64,000 nt of DNA from Tardiphaga sp. GTDB taxonomy: Bacteria; Pseudomonadota; Alphaproteobacteria; Rhizobiales; Xanthobacteraceae. The notes beneath the pieces are model-generated. The model searched no databases. It had not been told where the DNA came from and saw nothing but the letters and a program-made list of their open reading frames with translations. The translations under genes were made by a program, and so were the position numbers. The DNA lies in the NCBI GenBank assembly GCA_030147505.1, contig JASBVG010000078.1:1-64000 (forward strand), given 5' to 3'. Shown one piece after another: positions 14,033 through 44,743 of this stretch; positions within the stretch are counted from its first letter, which is position 1; each line of letters starts with the position of its first letter.

Positions 14033-14983
14033 ATGCGTTTTGAAGCGAAGGGTGTCATTCCCGCGGCGTTGCTGCCGTGGACGGCGGATTTAGAGTTGGA
14101 TGCGCAGGGGCTCAGGGGGCACCTCAAGGACCTCGCCGCGGTCGATGGCATCACGGCAATCTGCATCAACGGTCATGCTTCGGAAGTCACGTCCTGTACG
14201 GAAGCCGAGCAGATAGAGGTTCTCGATATTTCGCGTAAGGAAGTAGGGGGCGGATTGCCGCTGGTTTGCGGCGTCAATTCCGAAAGTAGCCTGACCGCCG
14301 CGCGGCTTGCTCGACGGTTTCAGGATGGCGGAGCTTCTGCTCTGCTGGTTTTTCCACCCTCCGTATTCGGCAAGGGTGCGCAGATGCGCCCGGAAATGGT
14401 GGTCGAACACTTTTCCCGCATCGCCGCGGCATCTGATCTGCCGCTGATCATATTCCAGTATCCGCTCGGTGGTGGGCAGGGGTATTCCCTCGACACTTTG
14501 CAGCGATTGGCCGAGGAGGTCCCGTCAATCGTCGGACTGAAGGACTATTGCGGCGATCCCGTCCTCCACGAGAATGTGGTGCGTTATCTTCAGAACGGCC
14601 CACGCAAGGTCAACGTCCTTAGCTCCCACAGTTCTTGGCTTCTGCAGTCGCTCGCGCTCGGCTGTGCCGGAATTCTATCTGGTGCCGGCAGCACGATCGC
14701 GCCGCTTCAAGTGGCGCTCTTCAAGGCAATGAGCGACGGTAACCTTTCTGCGGCGCGCGAGATCAACGAGCGGATGAATGCCGTCACGAGGGTCTTCTAT
14801 CGCCCGCCTTTCATCGACCAGCACAATCGCATGAAGGAAGCTCAGGTTCTGCTTGGCCATTTCCAAAATGCGGCGGTCAGGCCGCCTCTGATGAAGTTGA
14901 CCGACCGCGAGATTGCCTCAATCGAGCAGGGGCTTATCGGAGCGGGAATGCTGGATCGAAAATCAGCCAAGGCGGTCGCCTAA
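14033..14983 (+). CDS. DapA/NanA-superfamily lyase (dihydrodipicolinate synthase family), copy 1
   Basis: A 316-residue TIM-barrel aldolase/hydratase of the DHDPS superfamily, whose members make or break C-C bonds next to a keto acid through a Schiff base. The likely Schiff-base lysine is K170 in the GLKDYCGD motif. The residue matching DapA Tyr133 appears to be Phe (F141 of FQYP), as in the paralogue at 34759, so this is probably not a real DapA. It starts at ATG 14033 with GGAGG seven bases upstream. It is the first gene of a plus-strand operon (lyase, SDR, flavoprotein, CoA-transferase, MaoC, small barrel protein) preceded by operator A. The substrate is unknown; in a CoA-dependent catabolic setting, retro-aldol cleavage or hydration of a 2-oxo acid is plausible. 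Confidence 0.8.
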   Translation: MRFEAKGVIPAALLPWTADLELDAQGLRGHLKDLAAVDGITAICINGHASEVTSCTEAEQIEVLDISRKEVGGGLPLVCGVNSESSLTAARLARRFQDGGASALLVFPPSVFGKGAQMRPEMVVEHFSRIAAASDLPLIIFQYPLGGGQGYSLDTLQRLAEEVPSIVGLKDYCGDPVLHENVVRYLQNGPRKVNVLSSHSSWLLQSLALGCAGILSGAGSTIAPLQVALFKAMSDGNLSAAREINERMNAVTRVFYRPPFIDQHNRMKEAQVLLGHFQNAAVRPPLMKLTDREIASIEQGLIGAGMLDRKSAKAVA

Positions 14984-15018
14984 CGGCTCAGCGGACGAGC
15001 GCTTGAAAGCGGTGCCGC

Positions 15019-15034
15019 TCCCCCAGTTGGGGGA
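15019..15034. other. Perfect intergenic hairpin
   Basis: TCCCCCA-GT-TGGGGGA lies in the 127-base gap between the lyase and SDR genes. No T-run follows, so it is more likely an mRNA-processing or stability element inside the operon than a terminator. Confidence 0.4.
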
Positions 15035-15110
15035 ATTCGGTCCGCACAGTTTTCATCCGGAGACCGGCAAAGCCGTGCCGTGATCCAGTCAATGTGGAAG
15101 ACGAATCGTC

Positions 15111-15899
15111 GTGTCACTAAAAAGTAAAGTTGCGGTCGTCACCGGCGGCGCCAATGGAATCGGGCTCGCAACGGTTCGCCGTCTATTGACGGCGGGTGCG
15201 CAGGTAATCATCGCAGATCTGAATGAGGCCGCCGGCCAAGCCGCCGAGGCAAGCCTCGATCAGGCTGCCGGCGCTGTTCGCTTCGTCCGCACCGATGTCA
15301 CGCAGCTCAACAGCGTCACGCACCTGTTTGATCGTACGATCTCCACTTTCGGCGGGGTCGACATCCTCTTCAACAATGCGGGCGTGCTCGGCGGCCCACG
15401 CTTTCCCGAGGCCGGCCCTTCTTCGTGGATGAAGGCGATCGACATCAACGTGGTGGGAGTGATGAACTGCATCCATGTCGGCGTTCCGCATCTCGTGAAG
15501 CGCGGTGGCGGCGTAATCGTGAACACCGGATCGACCGCTGGGCTCAAGTCCAGCTTCCTCGATCCTGCATACGCCATGACGAAAGCTGCAGTGATCGGAT
15601 TGACTCGTTCGCTGACATTCCTCGAGGCCGAGGCGGGCATTCGGGTCAACTGTGTTTGCCCTGCACTGGTCAAGACCTCGCTGGAAGCCAACTCCGGCGG
15701 ACATTTCACTGACGCCGATCGCAAAGCGTTCCTGGATGGACGTGCTGGCAGATCCGATCAGCCGTCGCTCTCGCCCGACGACGTCGCCGAAGGGGCAATG
15801 CGGCTCATAGAAGATGCGAGTTTGAATGGCGTCGCCCTGAAATTGGCCGTTGGAGAACCACCGGAGCTGATTGCCAGCGTTGCGCCACAGAAGGTTTGA
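15111..15899 (+). CDS. Short-chain dehydrogenase/reductase (SDR), copy 1
   Basis: A 262-residue classical SDR that would oxidise or reduce an alcohol/ketone with NAD(P). The cofactor motif TGGANGIG is at residues 11-18, with an acidic residue after beta2 (AD, ~35-36) suggesting NAD. NNAG is at 88-91, Ser at ~141 and YAMTK (Y154, K158) forms the active site. The start is GTG at 15111 with GGAAG about ten bases before it; no better ATG exists. The flavoprotein gene follows after six bases, so the two are cotranscribed. The role is probably oxidation of a hydroxy intermediate of the pathway. Confidence 0.82.
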   Translation: MSLKSKVAVVTGGANGIGLATVRRLLTAGAQVIIADLNEAAGQAAEASLDQAAGAVRFVRTDVTQLNSVTHLFDRTISTFGGVDILFNNAGVLGGPRFPEAGPSSWMKAIDINVVGVMNCIHVGVPHLVKRGGGVIVNTGSTAGLKSSFLDPAYAMTKAAVIGLTRSLTFLEAEAGIRVNCVCPALVKTSLEANSGGHFTDADRKAFLDGRAGRSDQPSLSPDDVAEGAMRLIEDASLNGVALKLAVGEPPELIASVAPQKV

Positions 15900-15905
15900 A
15901 ACATT

Positions 15906-17327
15906 TTGACCAGCAAAAGCAACATGTTCGACGTCCTTGTTATCGGAGGCGGTATGTCCGGCCTCTGTGCCGCCTTGACCGCATTGGAAGAAGACGCCCG
16001 GGTTGCGGTCGTGGAAAAATCGGCCGCCCTCGGTGGGTCGATGAATCTTTCGAACGGTCTGATCTGGACCTTCGAAAACAAAGAGCAGCTTCACCTCGAG
16101 ATTCCGCAAGGTGACGAGGCTCTGCAAGACTTTGTCGTGGAAGAACTTCCAGCGGGTCTGAAGTGGCTTGTGTCGAACGGGGTCGCGTTGGCCGCGGAGC
16201 AAACCTTTCAATGGTACGGCTGGGGGCGCCGCGCCAATCCGGCTCAGATGGGACCGGCACTCGAAGACCGGATCAGAGCGCTTGGCGCGACGATCATGAC
16301 CGATACCTCGCTGGACACACTCATCGTGTCCAAAGGAAGAGTGGTCGGTGCAGTCGTCGACAGTGACAGCGGACGAAGCGAGATCCGTGCGAAGTCCGTC
16401 GTCATCGCTACGGGTGGCTTCCAAGGAAATCCGGAGCTTGTGGGCCGATATATTACCTCGAACGCGCATGATCTCTACTTGCGGTCAAATCCGTTCAGCA
16501 CGGGCGACGGTTTCCTCGCGGCGATGTCGGCGGGAGCGGCAACGAGCGAGTTGATGCATTCCTTCTACGGGCATGCGCTCGTTGCCCCGCCTGCGCGTTT
16601 CAACCAGTTCGAGTTTCAGAGCATCAGCCAAAAATACGGTGTGCTTTCCGTCGCCGTGAACTTGCGCGGGGAGCGCTTCACGGATGAAGCGCAAGGAACC
16701 GGCGAAGAAGACCTGAATTTCGCGATTGCTCATCAGCCCGAAGCGACGGCCATCTATATCGTCGATAGCAAGATCGCGGATATGGAATGGAAAGACAATG
16801 CTCCGGGGCGGGTCGCGATTTCTCGGGCCAAGACGGCTGGCGGGCCGGTTGCCGAGGCCGATACGCTCGAAGCGCTGGCACAGAAGCTCAAAGCGTGGGG
16901 CGTGCCGCCGAAGCGATTGCTGGAAACGATCGAAGAATACAATCGCACTGTCGGCAGCGATGAAGGCGCAGACCTCCATCCACCGCGGGTGAAGCATCAG
17001 ATTCCCTTGTCCGTTGGTCCGTTTACCGCGGTCAAGGTCAAAGCGGGCATTACCTACACATGCGGAGGCCTCAAGACCGATCTCGACATGGCCGTGATGC
17101 GACGATCGAGATCCATCTCGTCTTTCCGGCACCTCCGGGCCGGCGCGAGCGACATGCGTATGGATATGATTCCTGGTCTTTATGCATGTGGATGCGACGT
17201 CGGCGGAATCAGCAACTGGGGTTACATGGGCGGGTTGTCGCAAGCGCTGGTGACAGGGCGCGCGGCCGGTCGATCCGCGGCGAGTGCGGCCCTTGCGTCG
17301 GTGGAGGCTGAGGGTGCAAATGCTTGA
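15906..17327 (+). CDS. FAD-dependent oxidoreductase, fumarate reductase/succinate dehydrogenase flavoprotein-like
   Basis: A 473-residue flavoprotein with an N-terminal Rossmann FAD motif (VIGGGMSGLCAA) and, later, the ATGG and C-terminal GGISNWGYMGG segments seen in soluble fumarate-reductase and 3-ketosteroid-dehydrogenase-like enzymes. It would introduce or reduce a C=C bond next to a carbonyl. No heme-binding or iron-sulfur partner is next to it. The start is taken as TTG 15906, close behind the SDR stop; ATG 15924 is an alternative that still keeps the FAD motif. It overlaps the CoA-transferase by eight bases, indicating translational coupling. Confidence 0.78.
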   Translation: MTSKSNMFDVLVIGGGMSGLCAALTALEEDARVAVVEKSAALGGSMNLSNGLIWTFENKEQLHLEIPQGDEALQDFVVEELPAGLKWLVSNGVALAAEQTFQWYGWGRRANPAQMGPALEDRIRALGATIMTDTSLDTLIVSKGRVVGAVVDSDSGRSEIRAKSVVIATGGFQGNPELVGRYITSNAHDLYLRSNPFSTGDGFLAAMSAGAATSELMHSFYGHALVAPPARFNQFEFQSISQKYGVLSVAVNLRGERFTDEAQGTGEEDLNFAIAHQPEATAIYIVDSKIADMEWKDNAPGRVAISRAKTAGGPVAEADTLEALAQKLKAWGVPPKRLLETIEEYNRTVGSDEGADLHPPRVKHQIPLSVGPFTAVKVKAGITYTCGGLKTDLDMAVMRRSRSISSFRHLRAGASDMRMDMIPGLYACGCDVGGISNWGYMGGLSQALVTGRAAGRSAASAALASVEAEGANA

Positions 17328-18513
17328 GGGTATGAAGGTCATCAGCCTCTGCCACTATCTGCAGGGGCCCGCTGCCGTACAATATCTCGCGGACATGGGG
17401 GCGGACGTCGTCAAGGTGGAGCCGCCCGAAGGCGCACATGAGCGGCATTGGTCCGGGGCAAACGCCTATGTTTCCGGCGTCAGTGCGTTCTATCTTTCGG
17501 CGAACCGTAACAGCCGCAATATCGGTATCGATCTGAAGAGCGCCGAGGGCCGCGAGATCTTCCTCAAGATGGTCGAGACCACCGACGTGGTGGTCGAGAA
17601 CTTCAGAGCGGGCGTCATGGATCGCTTGGGCATCGGTCTGACCGAGCTCAGGAAACGCAATCCCTCAGTCATCCTTGCGTCGGCCAGCGGTTTCGGCGCG
17701 ACCGGTCCGATGTCGAGGCGTCCAGGCCAGGATCTTCTTGTACAAGCCAGAAGTGGCCTGATGTCGGTGACGGGGCACGGTCGGCCGACCGCGGCCGGGT
17801 GTGCCGCGGTGGATCAGCACGGTGCAGCGCTTCTGGCGATGGGAATCCTGGGCGCGTATGTGAAGAAGCTGCGCACAGGGGTGGGAACGCTGGTCGAAGC
17901 GTCCCTCTTCAACGCCGGTATCGATCTGCAGATGGAAGCCATGGTGAGTTACTTCACCGGCGGATTTCGAAACGAACGTCTGACGAGACAGCGCGAGCTG
18001 GCAACTTGGTTCCACCCGGCGCCTTACGGGATCTACGAGGCTGCGGACGGCTTCATCGCTATTTCCACCATCGATCCAAAGAAGCTCGCCGACGTCCTGT
18101 CGAGCGAACGTCTCCGGGAGATCGCCTCCATCGACCGATACAAGCATCGGGACGAGTATGCGCAAGCGGTTGCTGAGGCAGTGAAGAGGCATCGGCGCGA
18201 TGAATTGGCCGGGATGTTCGACAAGGCCGGGCTGTGGAACTCGATCGTGCAAGACTACGACGACCTGGCAGCGGACCCGCAGGCCATCCACAACGAGGTT
18301 TTTCGGGAGATCGATGTGAAGGGTGGCAAGGCGACGGTCATCAATCACCCGAACCGATACGACGGACAGGTGCCGGCAATTCGCCATTTTGCCTTCGATC
18401 TCGGTGAGGACACCGTCGAAATCGCAAGGTCGCTCGGCTACGGCGAGGACGAGATCGACAAGCTTTTGAGATCAGGCGCGATCATCGCCCCCACCAAATC
18501 GCACAAGGAATAA
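17320..18513 (+). CDS. Class III CoA-transferase (CaiB/BaiF family), copy 1
   Basis: A 397-residue enzyme that moves CoA between a donor acyl-CoA and a carboxylic acid. The early GADVVKVEPP motif and the PGQDLLVQA motif are clear; D138 of the latter is the expected covalent aspartate. The start is chosen at ATG 17320, overlapping the flavoprotein stop; the longer frame from 17284 adds residues that do not resemble the family. It is closely related to the product at 38212 (shared MLxGMxV start, PGQDLLVQA, VDQHGAALLAM, WFxPAPYG). It probably activates the substrate or an intermediate as its CoA thioester. Confidence 0.85.
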   Translation: MLEGMKVISLCHYLQGPAAVQYLADMGADVVKVEPPEGAHERHWSGANAYVSGVSAFYLSANRNSRNIGIDLKSAEGREIFLKMVETTDVVVENFRAGVMDRLGIGLTELRKRNPSVILASASGFGATGPMSRRPGQDLLVQARSGLMSVTGHGRPTAAGCAAVDQHGAALLAMGILGAYVKKLRTGVGTLVEASLFNAGIDLQMEAMVSYFTGGFRNERLTRQRELATWFHPAPYGIYEAADGFIAISTIDPKKLADVLSSERLREIASIDRYKHRDEYAQAVAEAVKRHRRDELAGMFDKAGLWNSIVQDYDDLAADPQAIHNEVFREIDVKGGKATVINHPNRYDGQVPAIRHFAFDLGEDTVEIARSLGYGEDEIDKLLRSGAIIAPTKSHKE

Positions 18514-18535: not shown

Positions 18536-19012
18536 ATGCAACTTGCACCGGAGCAGTTGGTCCTCGGCAAATGGTTCGAGGAATTCGAAGTGGGTCAACA
18601 GCTCGTTTCGCCGGCCAGAACCGTCACCGAAAGCGATATCCTTCTGTTCGCAGGCCTTACCGGAGACAATGCTCAGGTTCATACCGATGAAGAGTATGGC
18701 AAGAAGATGCTGTTCGGCGGTCGCATTGCGCATGGGCTCTTGGGGCTTGGGTTCATGCAAGGCCTGATGGCGCGGACGAACTACACGCAGGGTACAGGAG
18801 TGGCTTCCGTCGGCTGGGACAAGATCACCTTCGACGCTCCGATCATGATCGGAGACACAATCCGTGCGTTCTGGACGATCAAAGAGGCACGTCCATCCCG
18901 CTCCAGGCCCGAGGTGGGGATCATCGTGGAAGCCATCGAGCTTAAAAACCAGAACGGAAAGATCGTTCAGCGAGCCGAACATGCCATCATGATGCGTCGC
19001 CGACCGAAATGA
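18536..19012 (+). CDS. MaoC-like (R)-hydratase, copy 1
   Basis: A 158-residue single hot-dog-fold protein of the MaoC dehydratase family, which adds water to enoyl-CoA. The hydratase signature is visible: LFAGLTGDNAQVHTD around residues 37-51 supplies the Asp/His pair, followed by GGRIAHGLLGLG. The start is ATG 18536 with AGGGAG eight bases before. It lies 22 bases after the CoA-transferase in the same operon. A second MaoC is encoded at 25604, so the cluster may hydrate two different enoyl-CoA intermediates. Confidence 0.8.
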   Translation: MQLAPEQLVLGKWFEEFEVGQQLVSPARTVTESDILLFAGLTGDNAQVHTDEEYGKKMLFGGRIAHGLLGLGFMQGLMARTNYTQGTGVASVGWDKITFDAPIMIGDTIRAFWTIKEARPSRSRPEVGIIVEAIELKNQNGKIVQRAEHAIMMRRRPK

Positions 19013-19022: not shown

Positions 19023-19631
19023 GTGTCGATAGGTGAAGGCTTCTATCTGGTCATCACGACGCCTCATGCGGAAATGGCCGAGGAATACCACGCATGGTAT
19101 GAAAACGAACACATACCCGACATCATGAATATCCCTTTCGTGGCATATGCGCGGCGGCTTCGTATCGAACATCTCGCTGAGAGCGGCAGTGAGAAGACAT
19201 CCTTCGCCGCATTCTACGGCTTCCGAGACATCGAAGCGGCGGTCAACGAACTCGCGGCGCGGCGCGGAACGGAACGACTGCGATCGTCCAAGGCAGTCGA
19301 CGCTGGGGCAACTCGGTCGTGCGTTTTCGATGGCTTTCTAGACGATGTCGGCGCCTGCTGTGAGGCCGGACATTTCGGCTTCGCGCTTGCGGATCATTTG
19401 CTTCTGGACGAGAGCGTCCGTTTTGGTTCGTCTGGCGCGGGAGCTGGGACATTCTTTGCGCGGGCCAGTTCATTGCAGGCGAGGCCGGGGCCGGCTCCAT
19501 TTTCCGGCATCCAAATCGCAAAACAGGCTGCACAGATCATGCATCCAGCAGCGACGAGACAGGCCGATCCCATATCCGCAGTGGCCCTCGCTGCCGCGGC
19601 GGTTGCGATCGGCGCAATGTTCAGAAGTTGA
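19023..19631 (+). CDS. Dimeric alpha-beta barrel (EthD-like) protein with abnormal C-terminal extension
   Basis: A 202-residue reading frame starting at GTG 19023, ten bases after MaoC, with an AGGATGGGA ribosome binding site. Residues 1-~108 look like a ferredoxin-fold EthD-like small protein (FYLVITTPHAEM, EYHAWYENEHIPDI), a fold used in monooxygenase-like or binding roles in catabolic operons. Such proteins normally stop shortly after the point where this one reads CVFDGF (near 19340). Here the frame continues for ~95 residues of Ala/Arg-rich sequence with no recognisable domain. A stop (TAG) lies in the +1 frame at that exact place, so a one-base indel may have removed the natural end. 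The function in this pathway is unknown. Confidence 0.6.
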   Translation: MSIGEGFYLVITTPHAEMAEEYHAWYENEHIPDIMNIPFVAYARRLRIEHLAESGSEKTSFAAFYGFRDIEAAVNELAARRGTERLRSSKAVDAGATRSCVFDGFLDDVGACCEAGHFGFALADHLLLDESVRFGSSGAGAGTFFARASSLQARPGPAPFSGIQIAKQAAQIMHPAATRQADPISAVALAAAAVAIGAMFRS

Positions 19632-19714: not shown

Positions 19715-20323
19715 ATGCGAAATGAAATCAAATCCCTGGCAACGCGCTTGTTTACCCTGGTCGGGTACCGAGGCGTAAGTTTCGCCGATCTAACGGAAGA
19801 GCTCGGCACGACACGGGCGAATGTCCACTATCATTTCGGCAGCAAAGCCGGTCTTGCCGAAGAAGTACTCAAGTCCGCCGCTGAAGAAGTCTTGAGGACC
19901 TACCGAGGGATCTGGGCAAACCCGCAAACGACGTTGCGCGAAAAATTCGACCGATCCTACGCGTTCAACCTTGAGCGATATCAGCTCTATAACGGCGAGG
20001 ACGAAGGCCGCATCTGGAGCCTGATAACTCGTTTCAGAATGGATATGGATGTCATAACACCCACGATGGTCGTCACGCTCCGCGATGTGACCACAGGGAA
20101 CGAAGAGTGGATAGAGCGAGGTGTTCAAATCGCAGTGGATTCCGGAGAACTTGAAGCAGACGCGCCCGTAGCGGCGATAGCCGCGCTGATCGCAGGCGTC
20201 GTCCATTTTGCTTCACTCATCAGTCAGGCGCCACACGATATCCACCGCCTCCAACAGACCTATCAAGCGCTTTGCGATCTCATCTACCGGGCGCATGCAT
20301 GTCCGTCGGCGCAGCGCAGTTAG
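19715..20323 (+). CDS. TetR-family transcriptional regulator, copy 1
   Basis: A 202-residue TetR repressor. The N-terminal helix-turn-helix is clear (GYRGVSFADLTEELGTTRANVHYHFGSKAGLAEEVL, in short pieces at residues ~17-50). The C-terminal half would bind a ligand, typically a CoA thioester or acid of the pathway. It is paralogous to the regulator at 34659 (shared VGYRG.SF, LGTTRAN.HYHFGSK and a similar helical C-domain). It lies 83 bases after the first operon. It probably recognises one or both classes of YTKAC...GTMAG operators in this cluster. Confidence 0.85.
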   Translation: MRNEIKSLATRLFTLVGYRGVSFADLTEELGTTRANVHYHFGSKAGLAEEVLKSAAEEVLRTYRGIWANPQTTLREKFDRSYAFNLERYQLYNGEDEGRIWSLITRFRMDMDVITPTMVVTLRDVTTGNEEWIERGVQIAVDSGELEADAPVAAIAALIAGVVHFASLISQAPHDIHRLQQTYQALCDLIYRAHACPSAQRS

Positions 20324-20865
20324 GCTGATGGAGAAGATGACTTGGATCGATTTTCAGAATCGGAAACCGCAGGGCGGACCGAGGAGTTCTCGTGAGCGGA
20401 GAAGTATGTTCATGCGGCTGCCGGGCGTACGCCTAAGCATCTTGACTATTAAACCGCTTCGCGACCTGGCGCAGCCGGCGACGAACGTCCGGCGGCCAAC
20501 ACGTGCTGCTGCATCAGCTCGAGACATAGTTGTCACGTGCATCACGTGGCGATTTGAGCACAAACCTTTCGCGGTGACGTGATGTCGCATCGCACGAGAT
20601 AGGAGGCAAAAGCGGTTGGTAAGATTGACGAAAGACAACAAGAAATTTAGAACCTTCAAATAAGCTGACGTGCAGGTCAGTAAGTGTGAAGGGGACCCCA
20701 GGGAGGAGAGCCGCGCAGACCAAAGGTCTCGGCGCTGCTGTCCTTTGTGCAAATCGGAAAATGTGTCAGGCGCGTGCCCAGCGGTGCGCCCAGGGATCAA
20801 CTGTGTCTGCAGCAGAGCCGAGTGACAAGGCCGAAGGCCTCAACCGAGAAGAGTGGAGTGCGATG
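20324..20865. other. Long leader region of the binding-protein gene
   Basis: There is no convincing gene. It holds a weak promoter (TTGACG 20625-20630, 17-base spacer, TAGAAC 20648-20653), operator B at 20665-20680, and then ~185 bases of leader before the chosen start of the binding protein. An in-frame extension back to ATG 20686 is open but lacks signal-peptide character. Confidence 0.45.
20665..20680. promoter_or_regulatory. Operator B, 16-bp TetR-type palindrome
   Basis: CTGACGTGCAGGTCAG has arms CTGAC/GTCAG around a TGCA centre. It lies just downstream of a predicted -10 and upstream of the Bug/TctC-type receptor gene. It has the same architecture as the sites at 27727 and 36094. Confidence 0.6.
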
Positions 20866-21870
20866 ATGGACCGGTACAAACTCAGCAAACGTGCAGCGTT
20901 GCGACTAATGGCCGGCGCGGCGTTGCTTCCTGCGTTGCCCACAGGTTTGCGCGCGCAGACGAAGGACGACTACCCCAATCGGCTTGTCGAACTTGTGGTT
21001 GGCTTCGCGGCAGGCGGCCAAAGCGATATCCTCGGTCGCAAACTCGCACTTCAGCTGTCGAAGGAGCTGAACGGAAACTTCGTTGTCCTGAACAAGGAAG
21101 GTGCGTCGTCGACGATCGCCGCAAGGTATGTCACGACTTCGAAGCCCGATGGCTACACCATACTCCTCGGGGGTGGCAGTGGCATGATCATGGCGCCGCT
21201 CGTCATGAAGGTGCCATTCGATCCGGTCAAGGACTTCAGATCGATCTCGCTGTTGACCACCGCAGCTCTCTGCATTTCGGTGCATCCGTCAGTTCCGGCC
21301 AAGGATCTGAACGAGCTGGTGGCGTTGATCAAAAATAATCCCGACAAATACTCTTATGCGACGAGTGGGGCAGGCGGAAGCGATCATCTGACCGGTGAGT
21401 TGTTCAAGCAGGCGGCTGGCGATCTGCCGTTGCTGCACGTGCCGTATCGCGGTGCAGCGCCGGCGGCGACCAGCGTCATGGGCGGGGAGGTACCCATTCT
21501 CGTATCGACATTGAGTTCGATTTACCCCTATCACGCGGCCGGTCAGCTGCGGATGCTCGTCATGACGGGGGAGAAGCGCAACGCGAGTGCGCCGGAAATC
21601 GCGACCGCTGTCGAGCAGGGCTTCAAAGATCTCGTCGCGGAGACATCGAATTTCCTGACGGTCAATGCGGCGACGCCGAAGGAAATCGTAGCGAAGCTCT
21701 TCAATGCGACATCGAAAATCATGTCTCGGCCGGCATTCCTGGATGAGTTGCGGGCCGCACAGTTTGATCCCGTGACCGGATCGTCACCAGAGGCAACGGA
21801 CGCCTACATTGCGCGAGAAGTCGTCAAGTGGAGGCGCGTCGTCGAACGGGCAAAATTGAGCATCCAATGA
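20866..21870 (+). CDS. Bug/TctC-type tripartite tricarboxylate transporter substrate-binding protein
   Basis: A 334-residue periplasmic receptor of the Bug (TctC) family that captures organic acids. The N-terminus (residues 1-~30) has a basic start followed by MAGAALLPALP and an ALR-AQ cleavage-like site, consistent with a signal peptide. The mature protein opens with YPNRLVELVVGFAAGGQSDILGR, the usual Bug domain-1 loop. GGAG lies seven bases before ATG 20866; ATG 20863 is also possible. No TctA or TctB membrane subunits are adjacent, as is common for orphan Bug proteins, so it may use a transporter elsewhere or act as a sensor. Operator B upstream ties it to the regulon. Confidence 0.82.
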   Translation: MDRYKLSKRAALRLMAGAALLPALPTGLRAQTKDDYPNRLVELVVGFAAGGQSDILGRKLALQLSKELNGNFVVLNKEGASSTIAARYVTTSKPDGYTILLGGGSGMIMAPLVMKVPFDPVKDFRSISLLTTAALCISVHPSVPAKDLNELVALIKNNPDKYSYATSGAGGSDHLTGELFKQAAGDLPLLHVPYRGAAPAATSVMGGEVPILVSTLSSIYPYHAAGQLRMLVMTGEKRNASAPEIATAVEQGFKDLVAETSNFLTVNAATPKEIVAKLFNATSKIMSRPAFLDELRAAQFDPVTGSSPEATDAYIAREVVKWRRVVERAKLSIQ

Positions 21871-36093: not shown

Positions 36094-36109
36094 TTGACGT
36101 GCAAGTCAG
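36094..36109. promoter_or_regulatory. Operator D, 16-bp palindrome in divergent promoter
   Basis: TTGACGTGCAAGTCAG lies between the minus-strand DUF1330 gene (start 36029) and the plus-strand enoyl-CoA hydratase gene (start 36141). Its arms match operators A-C, and its TTGACG could be part of a -35 element for the plus-strand operon. Confidence 0.6.
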
Positions 36110-36140
36110 TCTAAGTCAAGTTTGGTCCGGAGGAACGCCA

Positions 36141-37031: not shown

Positions 37032-38195
37032 GTGATTGATTTTTCCATTAGCTCCGAAACCCAAATGCTGCTGGAGTCTGTCCGGCGTTTCATCAAGGAG
37101 GAGCTTGCTCCCCATGAAGCCGAGGTTGAGGAGGTACAGTATGTCCGCCCCGAGCTCGCGAAAGAATTGCGCGCCAAGGCCAAGAGCCTGGGCCTGTTCG
37201 CGATGGGCATGCCTGCCGAATTCGGTGGCGGCGGTCTCAGCGCCGTTGATATGTGCCTCTGTGAGGAAGAGTTCGGCTTTACCAAGGATGCGCTTGTTCG
37301 CCGCGCCTTCGGCGCCATTCCGGGGTCCTTGGAGAATTGCGTCGGCGAGCAGCGAGAAAAGTACCTGCTGTCAGCGGTGCGGGGCGACATCAATGTCGCG
37401 CTAGGGATGACGGAGCCGAATGCCGGCTCGGACGCGGCAGGCATCAAGACCGCGGCCCGTCGCGATGGCGACGATTTCATCCTCAACGGGTCCAAGCACT
37501 TCATCAGCGATGCGGACGTCGCTGATGCGTTTATCATTACCGCGGTAACAGATCCGTCGAAGGGCGCCAAAGGCATCAGCGCGTTCCTGATCGACAAGGG
37601 GACGCCGGGCTTCACTGTCGGTCGCATCCAGTACATGATGGGACTGCGTGCGACGAACCATTCCGAGCTCGTCTTCGAGAACGTGCGGCTGTCCAAAGAC
37701 CAGATGCTCGGTCCCGAAGGCTCGGGATTATTCCAGGCACTGTCGACCATCAACCGTGTCCGTCTCGGTATGGTTGGCGGACGTTCCGTTGGCATGGCAC
37801 GCAAGCTGCTTCAGATGTCGATCGACTATGCCAATGAGCGCAAGCAGTTCGGCCAAGCAATTGGTCAGTTCCAGATGGTTCAGGCCATGCTGGCCGACAT
37901 GGCAACGGAGATCTTTGCCGCGCGCATGATGGTTTTGAACGCCGCTTGGGAGACGGATCAGGGATTCGACCCGCGCGAGAAGGTATCGATGGTCAAATAC
38001 TACGCTTCGGAAATGCTCGGCCGAGTGGCCGACAAGGCCGTGCAGATCTTCGGTGGTATGGGCTATTGCCGGGAGATGCCGCTTGAACAGCTGTATCGTG
38101 ACGCGCGCGTCTACCGGATCTTTGACGGAGCATCCGATATCCATCGCGCCGTGATTGCACGTAGCCTCCTGAAAAACGGCCGCCAGGCTCTTTGA
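37032..38195 (+). CDS. Acyl-CoA dehydrogenase
   Basis: A 387-residue FAD flavoenzyme that forms the 2,3-double bond of an acyl-CoA and passes electrons to ETF. The motifs GMTEPNAGSDAAG (~118) and GFTVGRIQYMMG are those of the family, as is QIFGGMGYCREMPLEQLYRDARVYRI near the end (read in parts). The position of the usual catalytic Glu (YEGT) reads FDGA, so the base would be Asp, as in the ACAD10/11-like subgroup. The start is GTG 37032. It lies 69 bases after the hydratase and 16 before the CoA-transferase. EtfBA, encoded at 43062-44743, is its natural electron acceptor. Confidence 0.87.
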   Translation: MIDFSISSETQMLLESVRRFIKEELAPHEAEVEEVQYVRPELAKELRAKAKSLGLFAMGMPAEFGGGGLSAVDMCLCEEEFGFTKDALVRRAFGAIPGSLENCVGEQREKYLLSAVRGDINVALGMTEPNAGSDAAGIKTAARRDGDDFILNGSKHFISDADVADAFIITAVTDPSKGAKGISAFLIDKGTPGFTVGRIQYMMGLRATNHSELVFENVRLSKDQMLGPEGSGLFQALSTINRVRLGMVGGRSVGMARKLLQMSIDYANERKQFGQAIGQFQMVQAMLADMATEIFAARMMVLNAAWETDQGFDPREKVSMVKYYASEMLGRVADKAVQIFGGMGYCREMPLEQLYRDARVYRIFDGASDIHRAVIARSLLKNGRQAL

Positions 38196-38211: not shown

Positions 38212-39432
38212 GTGAAAACGATGCTCAATGGCATGCGGGTGCTAGGCTTCACCCATTTTGTGCAAGGCCCGGCCGCCTCGCAGTATCTCGCCGATCTCGG
38301 CGCAGACGTCATCAAGATCGAACCACTCACCGGCGCGTTCGAGCGTGGCTATGCAGCAGATTCCGTCTTCGTCGACGGCTTCAGCGCGACTTTCTTTTCA
38401 GTCAACCGCAACAAGCGGTCGATCGCAGTTGACTTGAAGAGCCCGCGTGGCCGTGAGGTGATCATTTCGTTGATCAAGACGGCTGATGTCATCATCGAGA
38501 ATTATCGCGGCGGCGTGCTCGATCGCCTTGGCTTTGGCTACGAGGCGGTCAAGGCGATAAAGCCCGATATCATCTACGCTTCGGCAACAGGGTGGGGATC
38601 GTCCGGGCCCATGGCTTCGGCGCCGGGACAAGACCTGCTCGTCCAGGCGCGCTGCGGACTGATCTCCGTCACCGGCAACCTCGATGCGGCTCCGACCGTG
38701 ACGGGCGTTCCCGTAGTGGACCAGCACGGTGCGGCTCTGCTCGCGATGGCCGTAAGCGCCGCTTATGCAAAGAAGCTTGCTACGGGTGAGGGGACACGGA
38801 TCGAATCGAATCTGCTCAGCGCGGGGCTCGATCTGCAGTGCGAGTCCATGGCTGCCTACTATTCCGGAGCGCGAGGGCCTGATCGGATGGTGCGCGATCA
38901 CCGGCTGGCTTCATGGTTTCTCCCGGCGCCCTATGGGGTGTTTCACCTGGCCGATTGTCATGCGGTGATCAGTCTTGGCGGCGATATCGAGAAGTTCGCG
39001 GGCGCGATCGGCACCCCTGAGCTGATGGAGCTCGCAGGAGATCGCATGGAAAATCGCGATGCCTTCATGCGCGTGCTGGGCGATGAATTGAAAGGCTGGA
39101 CATATGACCGGCTCGACAAGGCGCTGGCACCACATGGACTTTGGTACGAGCGCGTCCAGGATTACGACGCCGTGCGGCAGGACCCGCAGGTCGTTCACAA
39201 TGAGTCGTTTCAGGAATTCGCAATTGGCGACCAGACGGGGACGGTGCTTGCGCATCCCGTCCGTTATGACGGCAAGGTTCCTGAGTTCCGACGCATGCCG
39301 CGAGGGCTTGGTGCCGACACCCGCGAAGTTCTCGCGGACGCTGGCTGGAGCACTGGCGATATCGAGACGCTCGTGCGCGAAGGGGTTGTCGGTACGGGTC
39401 CTGCGGAAACACTGGTCAAGGCGCAATCCTGA
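38212..39432 (+). CDS. Class III CoA-transferase (CaiB/BaiF family), copy 2
   Basis: A 406-residue paralogue of the enzyme at 17320, with GADVIKIEP near residue 31 and PGQDLLVQA containing the expected covalent aspartate D141. The start is GTG 38212; ATG 38221 is a near alternative. The stop overlaps the next start by one base (TGATG). Its place between an acyl-CoA dehydrogenase and a 2-oxo acid oxidoreductase suggests it loads CoA onto the dehydrogenase substrate. Confidence 0.85.
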   Translation: MKTMLNGMRVLGFTHFVQGPAASQYLADLGADVIKIEPLTGAFERGYAADSVFVDGFSATFFSVNRNKRSIAVDLKSPRGREVIISLIKTADVIIENYRGGVLDRLGFGYEAVKAIKPDIIYASATGWGSSGPMASAPGQDLLVQARCGLISVTGNLDAAPTVTGVPVVDQHGAALLAMAVSAAYAKKLATGEGTRIESNLLSAGLDLQCESMAAYYSGARGPDRMVRDHRLASWFLPAPYGVFHLADCHAVISLGGDIEKFAGAIGTPELMELAGDRMENRDAFMRVLGDELKGWTYDRLDKALAPHGLWYERVQDYDAVRQDPQVVHNESFQEFAIGDQTGTVLAHPVRYDGKVPEFRRMPRGLGADTREVLADAGWSTGDIETLVREGVVGTGPAETLVKAQS

Positions 39433-42400
39433 TGAATATTCCGCTGCGGGACGTCTCCTTGCTGGACCGCTACACCCAGTCTTCCGGCGTGCTTTTTCTC
39501 AATGGAACGCAAGCGCTCGTGAGACTCCTGCTCGTACAGCGCGAGCGGGACCGCAAAGCGGGACTGAACACGGCGGGGTTCGTGTCGGGATATCGTGGTT
39601 CGCCACTTGGCGGCTTCGATATGGAGTTGTGGCGCTCTCAGAAATTCCTGAAAGAGTCAGGAATTGTATTCCAGCCAGGCGTGAATGAGGATCTGGCTGC
39701 GACGTCGGTCTGGGGTACGCAGCAGATTGACAGCCTGCCTGGCAAGACGGTCGATGGCGTGTTCGCCATGTGGTACGGCAAAGGGCCAGGGGTCGATCGC
39801 TCCGGTGATCCGTTCAAGCATGGCAACTACGCCGGCACCACGGAGCATGGTGGCGTGCTCGTCGTCTTCGGCGACGATCATCCGGGCAAGTCGTCGACGG
39901 TTGCACATCAGAGCGAACAGGCGCTGGCCGCCAATCTGATTCCCTCTTTGTATCCTTCGAACGTTCAGGAGATCATCGAGTATGGTCTTCATGGTTGGGC
40001 GATGTCGCGCCATACCGGCCTTTGGGTTGGATTGAAAACCGTCAACGAAACCGTTGAAACGACGTCGACCGTTTCGCTTACGGATGGCGAGCCGTTGATC
40101 AGCCCGCTGAATGCCCATGAGCCGAATGCTGCCATACGCCCGCAGCCAGATTACGGGCCTCAGCGCGACGAAACGGCAGTGATCAGGCATCGTCTGCCGC
40201 GGATTCATGAATATGCGCGCGTCAACAGGCTGGATAAGCGACATGTCGGCAAGGCCGGAGCCCGCCTTGGCGTCGTGACATCGGGAAAAACCTATGCCGA
40301 TCTCATCGATGCGCTGAACCTGCTGGGTATCGATCAGGCCCGCGCCGAATTTTTGGGGCTGTCGGTCTACAAGGTTGGCCTGATTTGGCCGCTGGAGCCG
40401 ACCGGACTTGTCGAGTTTGCCGAGGGGTGCGAGGAGCTGTTTTTCGTCGAGGAGAAGCGGGCATTTCTGGAAGATCAGGCGGCCAAGATCCTGTTCAACC
40501 GGTCGGTGCGCCCTCGGCTGATCGGCAAGGAAGATCTCGACGGCAACGCACTTCTGCCTTCGGATATACAGCTCAATCCAGTCATCATTGCCCAGGCATT
40601 GGTGGCGCGTCTTGTTGCGCTTGGGGTGGCAGATCCCGCGTTGCAGGACGCGCTCGCGAAGTCGAATCCCGGAAAGGCTCCGGCTTCTGCCCAAGGGCAG
40701 GCGGTGCGCGTACCTTATTTCTGCTCGGGATGCCCGCACAACACGTCGACCAAAGTGCCCGAAGGGTCGATCGCGATGTCCGGCATTGGTTGTCATTCGA
40801 TGGCGATGTGGATGAATCGCGACACCGTGAAGCCGGTGCAGATGGGGGCGGAAGGGGCGAATTGGATCGGCCTCTCGCATTTCACCACCACGAAGCATGT
40901 TTTCCAGAATTTGGGCGACGGCACCTATTCCCATTCGGGTCTGCTCGCCATTCGCGCTGCGGTGCTGTCCGGGGTCAACATCACCTACAAAATCCTGGCC
41001 AATGACGCTGTCGCGATGACGGGCGGCCAGCCGGTGGAAGGCGCTTTGGCCACCGATGCGATCGTGCGACAGGTGCTGGCTGAAGGCGTCAAGCGTGTGG
41101 TCGTGGTCACCGACGATGTCGAGCGAACATCGGTCAGTATCGCCGGTGTCGATGTGGTGGCGCGCGACCAGCTACAGCGCATTCAGACCGAACTCAGTCA
41201 AACCGCGAGCACTACGGTGCTCGTTTATGAGCAGGTTTGCGCGGCCGAAAAGCGGCGTCGCCGTAAGCGAAATCTGATGCCTGATCCACCTCAGCGCGTT
41301 TTCATCAATGAGGATGTCTGCGAAGGCTGCGGCGACTGTTCGGTTCAGTCCAACTGCGTCAGCATCGTGCCGGTGGAAACCGATCTTGGCCGTAAGCGAC
41401 GCATCGATCAATCGTCCTGCAACAAGGACTTCTCCTGTGTTGAGGGTTTTTGTCCCTCATTTGTGTCCGTCGAAGGTGGCAAGCTGCGCAAGGGGGACGG
41501 ACAGGTCGATCGCAGCCGCTTCGCAACATTGCCTGAAGTCCGCGATGTCGAGTTTGATCAGTATAGCGTTCTTATTACGGGTGTTGGTGGTACCGGCGTC
41601 GTCACGATCGGGAGCGTGCTGGCGATGGCCGCAAACCTCGCTGGCAAGGCTGCCAACGCCTACAACATGACCGGGCTTGCGCAGAAGGGCGGAGCCGTTT
41701 TCAGTCATCTCCGCATCGCGTCGTCGCCGGACCAGCTCGCGAGCGCGATGGTAGGGCCGGGCAGTGCCGATCTGCTGCTAGGGTGCGATCTTGTCGCAGC
41801 TGCGAGCGCCGATGGGCTCAGGAGTTGCGCGCCCTCGAAGACGCGCGCACTGCTGTCTGCAGATCCGATTCCGACGGCAGCGTTCCAGGCCGATGGAGAC
41901 TATCGGATCGATCAGCGCAAGCTCGTCGACCTCATCGAAGCCGTGTCCCAAGCGAGCCAGCTCACGGATGCGGATGCGATCGCGGAACAGATGCTCGGAG
42001 ATCGCATCGGCGCCAACATGTTCATGGTTGGCTATGCTTATCAGCAGGGATGGCTGCCGCTGCCGCTTCCCGCGATTCGCAAGGCGATTGAGCTGAACGG
42101 GGCTTCCGTGCAATTCAACCTGGATGCGTTTGACCTTGGCCGTCTTGCGGTCGTCGAGCCGGCTGCCGTGCAGGCGCGTCGCCGTGCGGCTCCGGTGGCC
42201 GACACCTGCGACGCTATCCTCGCACATCGCACAGGACTCTTGACGCGTTATCAGAATGCGCAGTGGGCCAATCGTTACGCCGGGTGGGTCAAGCGTGTAC
42301 GTGAAGCAGAAGAACGCGTCGTTCCGGGTTCGGAGAAGCTTTCGAAAGCGGTGGCGGTCCATCTGGCCAAGCTCATGTCGTACAAGGACGAATACGAGGT

Positions 42401-42848
42401 CGCCCGGCTGTACGCGGATGAGAGTTGGCGCTCGCGCCTTGATGAGACCTTTGTGGATTACAAGCGAATATCGGTTTGGCTATCGCCGCCGCTGCTTGCG
42501 CCCATGGATAAGGCGCGGGGACGCCCAAAGAAGGTCAAGTTCGGTTCTTGGGTATTGCCTGTCTTCAATGTTCTCGCGCGACTGAAGTGGCTTCGTGGTA
42601 CGCGCCTCGATCCGTTCGGATGGACGTCCGAGCGACGGAGCGAACGCAAGCTCATCGCGGATTATGAGGGCCAACTGGAGCTGATTATATCGGGGCTCAA
42701 TCCAGGCTCACTTGCTGTGGCATTAGAACTGGCCACGCTCCCCGACAGCATCCGTGGTTTTGGCGCGAGGAAGGAAGCTTCGATAAAGTTGGCCGAAAAT
42801 CGGGCAAACTTTCTCGTTGATCGGCTGCTGACGCCGACCTCGGGGTGA
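39432..42848 (+). CDS. Fused indolepyruvate:ferredoxin oxidoreductase (IorAB-like)
   Basis: An 1138-residue single-chain 2-oxoacid oxidoreductase that decarboxylates aryl- or branched 2-oxo acids to acyl-CoA and reduces ferredoxin. The N-terminal pyrimidine-domain part includes GFVSGYRGSPLGG. A thiamine-diphosphate domain lies near residue 450 (GIGCHSMAMW, then GAEGANWIG). Two cysteine clusters near 628-675 (CEGCGDCSVQSNC and CNKDFSCVEGFC) would hold Fe-S clusters. The gamma domain starts near 714 (ITGVGGTGVVTIG). Long fused versions occur in aerobic proteobacteria. It is translationally coupled to the CoA-transferase; a 2-oxo acid made by the GlcD-type oxidase could be its substrate. Confidence 0.88.
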   Translation: MNIPLRDVSLLDRYTQSSGVLFLNGTQALVRLLLVQRERDRKAGLNTAGFVSGYRGSPLGGFDMELWRSQKFLKESGIVFQPGVNEDLAATSVWGTQQIDSLPGKTVDGVFAMWYGKGPGVDRSGDPFKHGNYAGTTEHGGVLVVFGDDHPGKSSTVAHQSEQALAANLIPSLYPSNVQEIIEYGLHGWAMSRHTGLWVGLKTVNETVETTSTVSLTDGEPLISPLNAHEPNAAIRPQPDYGPQRDETAVIRHRLPRIHEYARVNRLDKRHVGKAGARLGVVTSGKTYADLIDALNLLGIDQARAEFLGLSVYKVGLIWPLEPTGLVEFAEGCEELFFVEEKRAFLEDQAAKILFNRSVRPRLIGKEDLDGNALLPSDIQLNPVIIAQALVARLVALGVADPALQDALAKSNPGKAPASAQGQAVRVPYFCSGCPHNTSTKVPEGSIAMSGIGCHSMAMWMNRDTVKPVQMGAEGANWIGLSHFTTTKHVFQNLGDGTYSHSGLLAIRAAVLSGVNITYKILANDAVAMTGGQPVEGALATDAIVRQVLAEGVKRVVVVTDDVERTSVSIAGVDVVARDQLQRIQTELSQTASTTVLVYEQVCAAEKRRRRKRNLMPDPPQRVFINEDVCEGCGDCSVQSNCVSIVPVETDLGRKRRIDQSSCNKDFSCVEGFCPSFVSVEGGKLRKGDGQVDRSRFATLPEVRDVEFDQYSVLITGVGGTGVVTIGSVLAMAANLAGKAANAYNMTGLAQKGGAVFSHLRIASSPDQLASAMVGPGSADLLLGCDLVAAASADGLRSCAPSKTRALLSADPIPTAAFQADGDYRIDQRKLVDLIEAVSQASQLTDADAIAEQMLGDRIGANMFMVGYAYQQGWLPLPLPAIRKAIELNGASVQFNLDAFDLGRLAVVEPAAVQARRRAAPVADTCDAILAHRTGLLTRYQNAQWANRYAGWVKRVREAEERVVPGSEKLSKAVAVHLAKLMSYKDEYEVARLYADESWRSRLDETFVDYKRISVWLSPPLLAPMDKARGRPKKVKFGSWVLPVFNVLARLKWLRGTRLDPFGWTSERRSERKLIADYEGQLELIISGLNPGSLAVALELATLPDSIRGFGARKEASIKLAENRANFLVDRLLTPTSG

Positions 42849-42865
42849 GTGTCGCTGCTGGACCC

Positions 42866-43009
42866 ATGTCTGTACCATCCGGTACCGTTCGGCCCAAGAA
42901 CGATTTAGATAGGGTTTTCGCGGACGAAATGTTCGGCACGCGGCATCCGGCGACGCTCGCAGTGGAGCTGACACGTTTCGCTCTGACGCATCGTGATATT
43001 TATAGTTAG
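42866..43009 (+). CDS. Possible small protein downstream of the oxidoreductase gene
   Basis: A 47-codon frame starts at ATG 42866, 17 bases after the oxidoreductase stop, and ends at TAG 43009. The composition (RVFADEMFGTRHPATLAVELTR) looks protein-like rather than random, but I know no family and the ribosome binding site is weak. It could be a remnant of a longer gene. Confidence 0.3.
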   Translation: MSVPSGTVRPKNDLDRVFADEMFGTRHPATLAVELTRFALTHRDIYS

Positions 43010-43061
43010 TGCGACTGTAGAAACCGCGTCATGAATGGCCGGTGTTGGAGAAAGGGTGTTG

Positions 43062-43811
43062 ATGAAGGTTCTGGTACCGGTCAAGCGGGTGGTCGATTAC
43101 AACGTCAAGGTTCGCGTCAAGGGCGACGGATCGGGCGTCGAACTCGCCAACGTGAAGATGTCGATGAATCCGTTCGACGAAATCGCCGTCGAGGAAGCCC
43201 TGCGTCTCAAGGAAGCCGGCAAGGCGACGGAAGTCGTTGTCGTCTCCATCGGGCCGCAGCAGGCCACCGAGACGCTGCGCACCGGTCTCGCCATGGGCGC
43301 CGATCGCGGCATCCTGGTGAAGGTCGACGGCACCGTTGAGCCGCTCGCTGTTGCCAAGATCCTCAAGAAGGTCGCTGACGAAGAGAAGCCGGGCCTCGTC
43401 ATTCTCGGCAAACAGGCGATCGACGACGACTCGAACCAGACCGGCCAAATGCTGGCCGCGCTGCTCGGCTGGGCCCAGGCGACTTTCGCCAACAAGCTCG
43501 TGGTCGAGGGCGACGACATCACCGTGACCCGTGAAGTCGACGGCGGCCTGCAGACCGTGAAGGTCAAGGCACCGGCGATAGTCACCACCGATCTTCGTCT
43601 CAACGAGCCGCGCTACGCGTCGCTGCCGAACATCATGAAGGCGAAGAAGAAGCCGATCGACGAAAAGACTGCCGATGCCTACGGCGTCGACGTGTCGCCG
43701 CGTCTCGAAATCGTCAAGACCTCCGAACCGGCAGGCCGCAAGGCCGGCGTCAAAGTCAAGGACGTCGCTGAACTGGTGTCGAAGCTCAAGACCGAAGCCG
43801 GGGTGCTCTAA
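43062..43811 (+). CDS. etfB: Electron transfer flavoprotein beta subunit
   Basis: A 249-residue EtfB. The N-terminal [14 protein letters not shown] and [17 protein letters not shown] motifs are diagnostic, and the AMP-binding region is intact. The start is ATG 43062 (GGAG/AAAGGG upstream); the open frame from 43035 adds nine non-homologous residues. Together with EtfA it accepts electrons from acyl-CoA dehydrogenases and passes them to ETF:quinone oxidoreductase. Codon use (strong C/G third positions) looks more like a highly expressed housekeeping gene than the preceding cluster. Confidence 0.96.
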
Positions 43812-44743
43812 TGGCTATTCTTCTTCTCGCAGACCACGACAACGCCTCGCTCAAGGACTCCACCAACAAGGTGCTGACCGCTGCCACCGAAATCGGTGGT
43901 GACGTGCATGTCCTCGTTGCCGGCCAAAACGCCAAGCCCGCTGCCGAAGCCGCCGCGAAGCTCAAGGGCGTCGCAAAAGTTCTGCTGGCTGACAACGAAG
44001 CCTATGCCCATGATCTCGCCGAGCCGCTGGCCGCGCTGATCGTCAAGCTGGCCCCGGCCTACGATGTCATCATCGCTGCCGCCACCACGCGGTCAAAGAA
44101 CACCATGCCGCGCGTCGCTGCTTTGCTCGACGTGATGCAGGTGTCGGAGATCACCAAGGTCGTCGCGCCCGACACGTTTGAGCGTCCGATCTATGCCGGC
44201 AACGCGATCCAGACCGTGAAGTCGAAAGACGCCAAGAAGGTCATCACCGTCCGCACCTCTACCTTTGCCGCAGCCGGCGAAGGCGGCAGCGCGTCGGTGG
44301 AAGACACCGCGGCAGCCGAGAATCCCGGCCTGTCCACTTTTGTCAGCGAAGACATGGCGAAGAGCGATCGTCCGGAACTGACCTCGGCGAAGATCATCGT
44401 CTCCGGTGGCCGCGCCATGCAGAGCCGCGAGAACTTCACCAAATATATCGAGCCGCTCGCCGACAAGCTCGGCGCCGGCGTCGGCGCTTCGCGCGCGGCG
44501 GTGGATGCCGGCTATGCGCCGAACGACTGGCAGGTCGGCCAGACCGGCAAGGTGGTCGCTCCGGAGCTCTATGTCGCCATCGGCATCTCGGGCGCCATCC
44601 AGCATCTCGCCGGCATGAAGGACTCCAAGGTGATCGTCGCGATCAACAAGGACGAAGACGCGCCGATCTTCCAGGTTGCCGATTACGGTCTGGTCGCCGA
44701 CCTCTACCAGGCGGTGCCGGAACTGACCTACGCGATCGGCTGA
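43811..44743 (+). CDS. etfA: Electron transfer flavoprotein alpha subunit
   Basis: A 310-residue EtfA, overlapping etfB by one base (TAATG). The C-terminal FAD domain is complete: [37 protein letters not shown] (in parts), [12 protein letters not shown] and [20 protein letters not shown]. In related genera I expect a 3-hydroxybutyryl-CoA dehydrogenase gene next; here the IS110 array begins 120 bases downstream instead. Confidence 0.96.

Follow-up and report, generated by a model that had tools for sequence, protein, structure and literature searches.

A probable mobile catabolic island in Tardiphaga sp. that joins two separately inherited CoA-linked modules under one predicted operator type

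The gene cluster at 14033-44743 of a 64,000-nucleotide stretch of Tardiphaga sp. DNA (contig JASBVG010000078.1, positions 1 to 64,000; hereafter the window) encodes coenzyme A (CoA)-dependent enzymes, transport proteins and two TetR-type regulators. Taken as a whole, it is probably a mobile catabolic island, composed of two separately inherited modules with a common operator type and a deduced catabolic chemistry. The parts of this explanation differ in strength: we hold the presence of two modules under one predicted operator type to be likely, while the chemistry suggested by the enzyme families is a tentative proposal. The modules are referred to as block A (14033-21870) and block B (22290-42848). 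DapA1, CaiB1, MaoC1 and TetR1 denote the block A copies, and DapA2, CaiB2, MaoC2 and TetR2 the block B copies.

Two separately inherited blocks

The two members of each pair share 54% (DapA), 47% (CaiB), 42% (TetR) and 41% (MaoC) sequence identity, which indicates that the pairs are old and not the product of a recent tandem duplication. All eight genes of block A have relatives at a single locus of Bordetella petrii BT 1 9.2 (42-79% identity), where the gene order dapA1-sdr1-fad2-caiB1-maoC1-ethD is kept and tetR1 and tctC lie outside that order. A 21-kb locus of Parapusillimonas granuli contains relatives of tetR1, dapA1, ethD and tctC, and no CaiB gene is found within these 21 kb. A further genome from the host family (G190, 99% complete) contains all of block B: 18 of 18 genes, beginning with the enone reductase and ending with the 2-oxoacid:ferredoxin oxidoreductase, are present with the order kept, 74-95% protein identity and 78.5% DNA identity over 17 kb. 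Five block B genes are also found at 91-98% on a 7.5-kb contig of G015, a genome of the host's own genus. A two-row DapA profile (E 1e-40) retrieved one gene each from G190 and from the B. petrii genome, DapA2 in the former and DapA1 in the latter. Of the 198 family genomes searched at E 1e-70, one contains the block A flavoprotein: the host's own (6.2 Mb). In a DapA tree of 123 rows, built by a quick method with SH-aLRT support only, DapA1 groups with the B. petrii and Parapusillimonas proteins (95) and then with plasmid copies (100), and DapA2 groups with the proteins of G015, G190 and RHA1 pRHL1 (99).

Because each block is found elsewhere without the other, A and B appear to have been inherited separately, and these locus comparisons make it well supported that the two halves are independent modules and not one internally doubled ancestral pathway. 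The original prediction had described a single pathway with doubled enzyme sets, which does not agree with the occurrence of A without B in B. petrii BT 1 9.2 and of B without A in G190. The doubling holds for DapA, CaiB, MaoC and TetR, and not for the remaining genes, in which the halves differ. The accompanying idea that the two sets serve two stereoisomers or two successive chain-shortening rounds is likewise a poor fit, because block A lacks an acyl-CoA dehydrogenase, a crotonase, a ligase and a 2-oxoacid oxidoreductase, and block B lacks the flavoprotein dehydrogenase. Local tandem duplication was considered as a source of the pairs and rejected, since neither DapA has its nearest relative in the other: identity to separate orthologues is 75% for DapA1 and 85-93% for DapA2, against 54% between the two.

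The electron-transfer flavoprotein (ETF) genes next to block B have a different origin. Their DNA match is confined to 43061-44740, with 94% identity to the other ETF of the same genome (G000:C90) and 95% to the congener G010, and no ETF is found beside block B in G190. ETF as an original member of the module is ruled out by this absence and by the match to the genus's own ETF; as judged from these DNA matches, the pair is a captured copy of the latter. The 2-oxoacid oxidoreductase is 80% identical in G190 and 91% in the G015 fragment; in the rest of the genus, long matches reach 46-50% and a 118-residue piece in G015 reaches 62%. By these identities the enzyme is a separate paralogue within the genus.

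A shared predicted operator

Promoter comparison revealed an 18-bp palindrome, ACTKACN6GTMAGT, which occurs with up to one mismatch at five positions in the window:

13992..14009: exact match, dapA1 promoter; kept at the B. petrii and P. granuli loci; the only exact match in the 6.2-Mb genome
20664..20681: one mismatch, before tctC
25550..25567: one mismatch, divergent promoter of glcD and maoC2; kept in G190
27726..27743: one mismatch, livH; kept in G190 with a different spacer
36093..36110: one mismatch, divergent promoter of DUF1330-dapA2 and the crotonase gene

All five sites are intergenic and within the cluster, two in block A and three in block B; 0.18 sites are expected in 64 kb, and none of 100 shuffles reached five. 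G190 keeps all three block B sites (positions 3365, 11692 and 13845 of its locus), including the livH site, whose half-sites are the same. The dapA1 operator is kept once in B. petrii, where the promoters are only 44% identical overall, and twice in P. granuli. At three further loci (L018, L035 and L041), sites lie upstream of a flavoprotein-type gene and of an SDR-SDR-DapA run (SDR, short-chain dehydrogenase/reductase); in L041 the first gene behind the site is a 495-residue frame without a BLAST label.

The seven loci with a TetR1/2-like gene total 144,605 bases and contain 13 sites, of which one falls within a frame; L198 is the one locus among the seven that has no site. Loci without such a gene contain 6 sites in 1,799,880 bases, and mononucleotide shuffles of all loci give 6-11. 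A scan of nine whole genomes, performed with the exact form only, returned five matches, all of them at these clusters. The sites that emerged only with the final form of the pattern are those at livH (window and G190), at dapA1 of B. petrii and in the dapA promoters of L189 and L192, plus second sites in L018 and L041.

TetR1 and TetR2 have a common recognition helix, TTRANxHYHFGSK, while other members of the family have [TIV]TRANIHxxxGxK. The presence of the operator at promoters of both blocks, together with the near-identical helices, suggests that the two blocks, despite their separate inheritance, probably have one predicted repressor site in common. Co-induction of the two blocks is plausible, and is made likelier by the operator at promoters of both halves. 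The operator also offers a direct handle for telling which genes of a genome group together without knowledge of the substrate.

Gene content of the cluster

Gene families were called by Pfam and NCBIfam profile searches and by open reading frames. The cluster contains:

14033..14983, +: dapA1, Tyr-less DapA-type lyase, start of block A (PF00701; K170, F141; structure model with pLDDT 91.3)
15111..15899, +: SDR1 (PF00106)
15924..17327, +: FAD_binding_2 flavoprotein dehydrogenase, TcuA/fumarate-reductase like (PF00890; NF006130, 194 of 369 bits; PDB 1qo8)
17320..18513, +: CaiB1, class III CoA-transferase (PF02515; GQDLLVQA)
18536..19012, +: MaoC1 hydratase (PF01575; GD....H)
19023..19631, +: DUF4286-domain protein, gene label ethD (PF14114, 27.8 bits, cut-off 25.8)
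19715..20323, +: TetR1 (PF00440; recognition helix)
~20803..21870, +: TctC-type binding protein, end of block A (PF03401; start by coding score)
~22290..23255, +: medium-chain enone reductase, start of block B (NF058644, 452.8 bits, cut-off 440)
23239..24132, -: AroE-like dehydrogenase (PF08501; VPHK, DGKG)
24129..25532, -: GlcD/D-lactate-dehydrogenase-like FAD enzyme (PF02913, PF01565; PDB 8jdc, 484 bits)
25604..26071, +: MaoC2 (PF01575)
26068..26850, +: SDR2 (NF009386, 331.9 bits, cut-off 250)
26905..27675, +: SDR3 (family profile; passes a curated NCBIfam cut-off)
27734..32329, +: LivH, LivM, LivG, LivF and LivJ (LivH and LivM by Pfam, LivJ by NCBIfam)
32384..34042, +: acyl-CoA ligase, PRK06155-like (NF004808, 441.8 of 722 bits)
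34039..34659, -: TetR2 (PF00440)
34759..35745, -: dapA2, Tyr-less DapA-type lyase, coding start ~35706 (PF00701)
35742..36029, -: DUF1330 protein (PF07045)
~36147..36962, +: crotonase (PF00378; both motif Glu present)
~37065..38195, +: acyl-CoA dehydrogenase (profile match; Asp replaces the usual Glu in the alignment)
~38221..39432, +: CaiB2 (PF02515; GQDLLVQA)
39432..42848, +: fused 2-oxoacid:ferredoxin oxidoreductase, indolepyruvate type, end of block B (NF009589, 1511.6 bits, cut-off 816)
43035..44743, +: EtfB-EtfA pair (94% DNA identity to G000:C90, 95% to G010)

LivG and LivF were named only from their likeness to the annotated ATP-binding cassette (ABC) ATPases of locus L011, and the true start of livH is probably ~27788, as judged from the shorter G190 frame. 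The CaiB proteins match the class III CoA-transferase domain PF02515 with 304.7 (CaiB1) and 291.7 (CaiB2) bits against a cut-off of 23.3. Motif residues are kept in both CaiB and both MaoC proteins, in the three SDRs (YxxxK), in the crotonase (GG.E.A and LPE..LG) and in the AroE-like protein. We take these motifs to have their usual catalytic roles, with the D of GxDxxxQA as the presumed active-site Asp of CaiB. Among the 28 listed genes plus the DUF1330 gene, each of which has a family assignment (LivG and LivF by likeness), no thiolase is present. Between livJ and the ligase gene, at 32338-32364, a perfect 11-bp stem with a 5-nucleotide loop (GGGAGAGGCGC...GCGCCTCTCCC) is a possible attenuator or processing site. 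A consensus scan of 35700-36200 found no sigma-70 promoter.

The enzymes named in the original prediction are all present with open frames: two copies each of DapA, CaiB, MaoC and TetR are confirmed by the profile searches, as are three SDRs, the acyl-CoA dehydrogenase, crotonase, GlcD-like and AroE-like enzymes, the ligase, the 2-oxoacid oxidoreductase and the Liv set (LivG and LivF by likeness). That list was incomplete by seven genes, namely those for the FAD_binding_2 flavoprotein, the DUF4286 protein, TctC, the enone reductase, the DUF1330 protein, EtfB and EtfA. Its statement that no named pathway has this set agrees with the searches. Of 19 cluster proteins compared with NCBIfam, four passed a curated cut-off (SDR2, SDR3, the enone reductase and the 2-oxoacid oxidoreductase), and none of the models concerned names a pathway of this kind. 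Judged by title and opening of the abstract, no paper from the literature searched, which mostly excluded subscription papers and preprints, deals with a DapA-CaiB-MaoC route.

A DapA subfamily without the catalytic tyrosine

DapA1 and DapA2 belong to the DapA/NAL superfamily of TIM barrel proteins. In the 123-row alignment, the Schiff-base lysine K170 aligns with the family lysine in all rows, and N46, H48, E51 and K268 are equally invariant. The catalytic tyrosine of the YNxP motif is replaced by phenylalanine (F141) in 118 of the 123 rows, including both window copies, and in none of the rows does E occur two positions after the lysine, where W, G, Y, S or N is found. Compared with the class I aldolases of the superfamily, such as DHDPS (4-hydroxy-tetrahydrodipicolinate synthase) and N-acetylneuraminate lyase, these proteins thus differ in the Tyr-to-Phe exchange, in the GxxGE motif, which reads NGHASE, and in a new C-terminal motif, DMHNRMK or DQHNRMK. 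Both proteins score below the cut-off of every NCBIfam model matched (TIGR00674 for DHDPS: 108.5 and 105.9 bits, cut-off 206.15) and are 20-27% identical to the 50 best structures. The family libraries used assign no function to the subfamily, which is widespread: at least 563 stretches encode a relative, including SAR116, SAR324, Hyphomicrobiales and Burkholderiales.

A precedent for the loss of the tyrosine exists in the same family. According to an excerpt of PMC9795676, 2-dehydro-3-deoxy-L-arabinonate dehydratase has Gln143 in place of the tyrosine, catalyzes dehydration only, and uses a glutamate two residues past the lysine. The proteins of the present subfamily differ from it in having Phe instead of Gln and in lacking that glutamate. 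The dehydratase is not among the 50 best structures, which excludes nothing. If a Schiff-base lyase without this tyrosine acts in CoA-linked catabolism, it would bring a further reaction to a well-studied enzyme family.

Genomic setting and related loci

The cluster has a GC content of 58-60%, compared with 64-65% in the upstream and 54-62% in the downstream DNA. On one side it is bounded by a filamentous-haemagglutinin-like gene and the remnant of a transposase (13306-13836), on the other by an IS110-type transposase gene (46434-47426). The haemagglutinin-like gene is a frame of more than 4000 residues (224-12430, + strand) with a DUF3739 domain and a TPS domain just below the cut-off, and resembles filamentous-haemagglutinin-like secreted proteins. 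Within 44908-47426, the frame 45406-46032 lies between two 16-nucleotide inverted repeats (44908 and 46337) that match perfectly. Beyond the IS110-type transposase, genes for a TrwB coupling protein and a TrwC relaxase with helicase are found (50054-57022, - strand), and a large serine recombinase is encoded outside the window (G000:C83:66464-68002). The cluster may thus ride on a conjugative or integrative element; the flank 44744-64000 has no plasmid DNA relatives at the megablast level.

Several further loci contain relatives of individual genes. In G131 (L123, 12658-17682), the C-terminal half of the ligase and an acyl-CoA dehydrogenase (79%) lie beyond guaA, beside an integrase and an IS21 gene; this island is a decayed relative of block B and decides nothing about the substrate. 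On a Rhizobium plasmid (L010, 6934-15828), a CaiB1-like gene (65%) and DapA genes are found together with ABC genes of the sugar type and with short frames that look broken. A DapA1-like gene (62%) plus a MaoC gene occurs in L007, L008 and L014, the first two of which are located on plasmids of Delftia and of a Variovorax from linuron-contaminated soil, near IS1071/IS1600 and chlorocatechol-type genes. B. petrii BT 1 9.2 carries a tfd herbicide cluster, as described in an excerpt of PMC10531765. In other genera, there are sets in which a CoA-transferase, an acyl-CoA dehydrogenase and MaoC are accompanied by one, two or three DapA-type genes (L208, 10637-28676; L136; L137; L207); these sets lie near amino-acid-type ABC or tripartite ATP-independent periplasmic (TRAP) transporters. 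Two such sets are adjacent in L208, L136 and L137, and in L137 one has CaiB and the other a PF01144-type transferase.

Proposed route

In the proposed route, TetR1 and TetR2 would keep both sets silent until they bind a carboxylic acid or the CoA ester derived from it. The acid would enter via the Liv system (block B) or a TctC-type system (block A), and its CoA ester would be formed by the ligase or by CaiB. Alcohol, ketone and enone groups could then be handled by an SDR with the flavoprotein (block A) or with the enone reductase (block B), and water could be added by MaoC or the crotonase. The Tyr-less DapA might form a lysine Schiff base with a ketone or 2-oxo acid and carry out a C-O or C-C lyase step, taking the role that thiolase has elsewhere. 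The GlcD-like enzyme of block B and its 2-oxoacid oxidoreductase look like a natural pair from 2-hydroxyacid to acyl-CoA; together they would yield an acyl-CoA one carbon shorter, to be oxidized by the acyl-CoA dehydrogenase with ETF.

DapA is placed at the lyase step because the cluster has no thiolase, and it is the likeliest candidate for that step, as a dehydratase or as a retro-aldolase on a non-pyruvate ketone. Many clusters of this kind seem to treat alcohols, ketones and enones (by SDR, FAD_binding_2, and old yellow enzyme or enone reductase) beside a Schiff-base lyase, and CoA enzymes are present in a minority of them, both blocks included. Among solved structures, LivJ is closest to generic binding proteins of the Leu/Ile/Val type, which do not decide the substrate. 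A bolder idea, to which we give rather little credence, is a new regulon family of alpha- and betaproteobacteria. It would be defined by a TRANxH-type TetR, the operator ACTKACN6GTMAGT and a Tyr-less DapA that replaces thiolase by a C-C or C-O cleavage new to the superfamily, at a ketone next to a CoA ester; the window would then contain two such regulons merged.

Alternative explanations

Several observations weigh against the reading of the cluster as an island of two modules with a common operator and the proposed chemistry. The host genome is a draft of 134 contigs with 7.64% contamination, and the profile search gives one TGA within the DapA1 match of B. petrii, a stretch that reads open in two other analyses. 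Over the nine genomes, a reversed-control pattern gives eight exact matches against five for the operator; the exact operator is thus no commoner than its control, and the case rests on position. The counts are also partly circular, because four window sites, both P. granuli sites and the G190 site at dapA2/crotonase were used in drawing the pattern, and its first form was applied to further relatives. The TetR of L198 has nearly the same helix, yet no site lies within its 20 kb, and the common operators may reflect only TetR paralogy with different inducers. CaiB is found within 8 kb at only 6 of 70 subfamily loci with enough flank, so that a constant association of CaiB with this DapA is out for the subfamily as a whole and holds for some sub-clades; among the class-sample loci, CaiB is nearby in 7 of 20, with 1.5 expected. 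The proposed chemistry is deduced from the enzyme families.

One competing explanation, which we consider possible though doubtful, is that two unrelated modules with different substrates landed next to each other on a single mobile element and have the operator in common only by inheritance from related TetRs. The occurrence of each block without the other, the transposase and conjugation genes around the cluster, and the low overall identity of TetR1 and TetR2, which leaves room for different ligand domains, are in line with it. However, with one operator and recognition helices that hardly differ, cross-regulation is to be expected as soon as the modules are together, and both blocks have a core of DapA, CaiB, MaoC and a small partner protein. 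The opposite possibility is one new two-stage pathway, in which A opens a ring or chain and passes the product to B, ending in the 2-oxoacid oxidoreductase and the acyl-CoA dehydrogenase. The shared operator, the complementary gene content and the adjacent doubled sets of CoA-transferase, acyl-CoA dehydrogenase, MaoC and DapA in the OTU4NAUVB1 plasmid, G133 and G065 argue for it, but A and B are each found alone, so that each seems able to deal with its original substrate unaided by the other, and we regard this pathway as unlikely.

For the lyase step itself, a serious contender, with chances a little short of even, is that DapA1 and DapA2 are dehydratases and not C-C lyases, the Schiff base without Tyr eliminating water with no aldol cleavage. 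The near-constant Phe and the arabinonate dehydratase that has lost the same tyrosine speak for this, whereas the glutamate of that precedent has no counterpart here, and dehydration would leave the 2-oxoacid oxidoreductase as the only C-C cleaving enzyme in B and none in A. A known pathway in disguise is, by comparison, very improbable. Family likeness would point to carnitine (cai) for CaiB, the acyl-CoA dehydrogenase and the ligase, to itaconate for MaoC, to cyclohexanecarboxylate aromatisation (chc) for the flavoprotein and SDR, and to estrogen 4,5-seco degradation (EdcC) for the 2-oxoacid oxidoreductase. But the scores of the specific models stay well below the cut-offs: CaiB 113.1 and 87.9 of 413 bits, CaiA (crotonobetainyl-CoA dehydrogenase) 175.1 of 540, the itaconate hydratase Ich (NF038241) 74.4 and 22.3 of 340, ChcC1 93.9 of 1000 and ChcB1 134.8 of 400. 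The cluster also has no citramalyl-CoA lyase and no ring-cleavage dioxygenase.

Relation to known pathways

The carnitine cai/fix operons encode CaiB, acyl-CoA dehydrogenase, ligase, crotonase and ETF families. The cluster has the same families; it differs in its subfamilies, as the model scores indicate, and in the additional DapA, 2-oxoacid oxidoreductase, GlcD-like and AroE-like enzymes. Itaconate is degraded by a CoA-transferase, the MaoC hydratase Ich and citramalyl-CoA lyase. The succession of CoA-transferase, MaoC hydratase and a lyase in place of thiolase would be the same here, with a DapA-type instead of a CitE-family lyase and with extra redox enzymes. Estrogen 4,5-seco degradation differs from the cluster, which has no steroid or meta-cleavage genes. 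It shares with it an indolepyruvate-type 2-oxoacid oxidoreductase: EdcC converts a 2-oxo acid to its CoA ester aerobically, as described in an excerpt of PMC12507874, and provides a precedent for aerobic use of such an enzyme.

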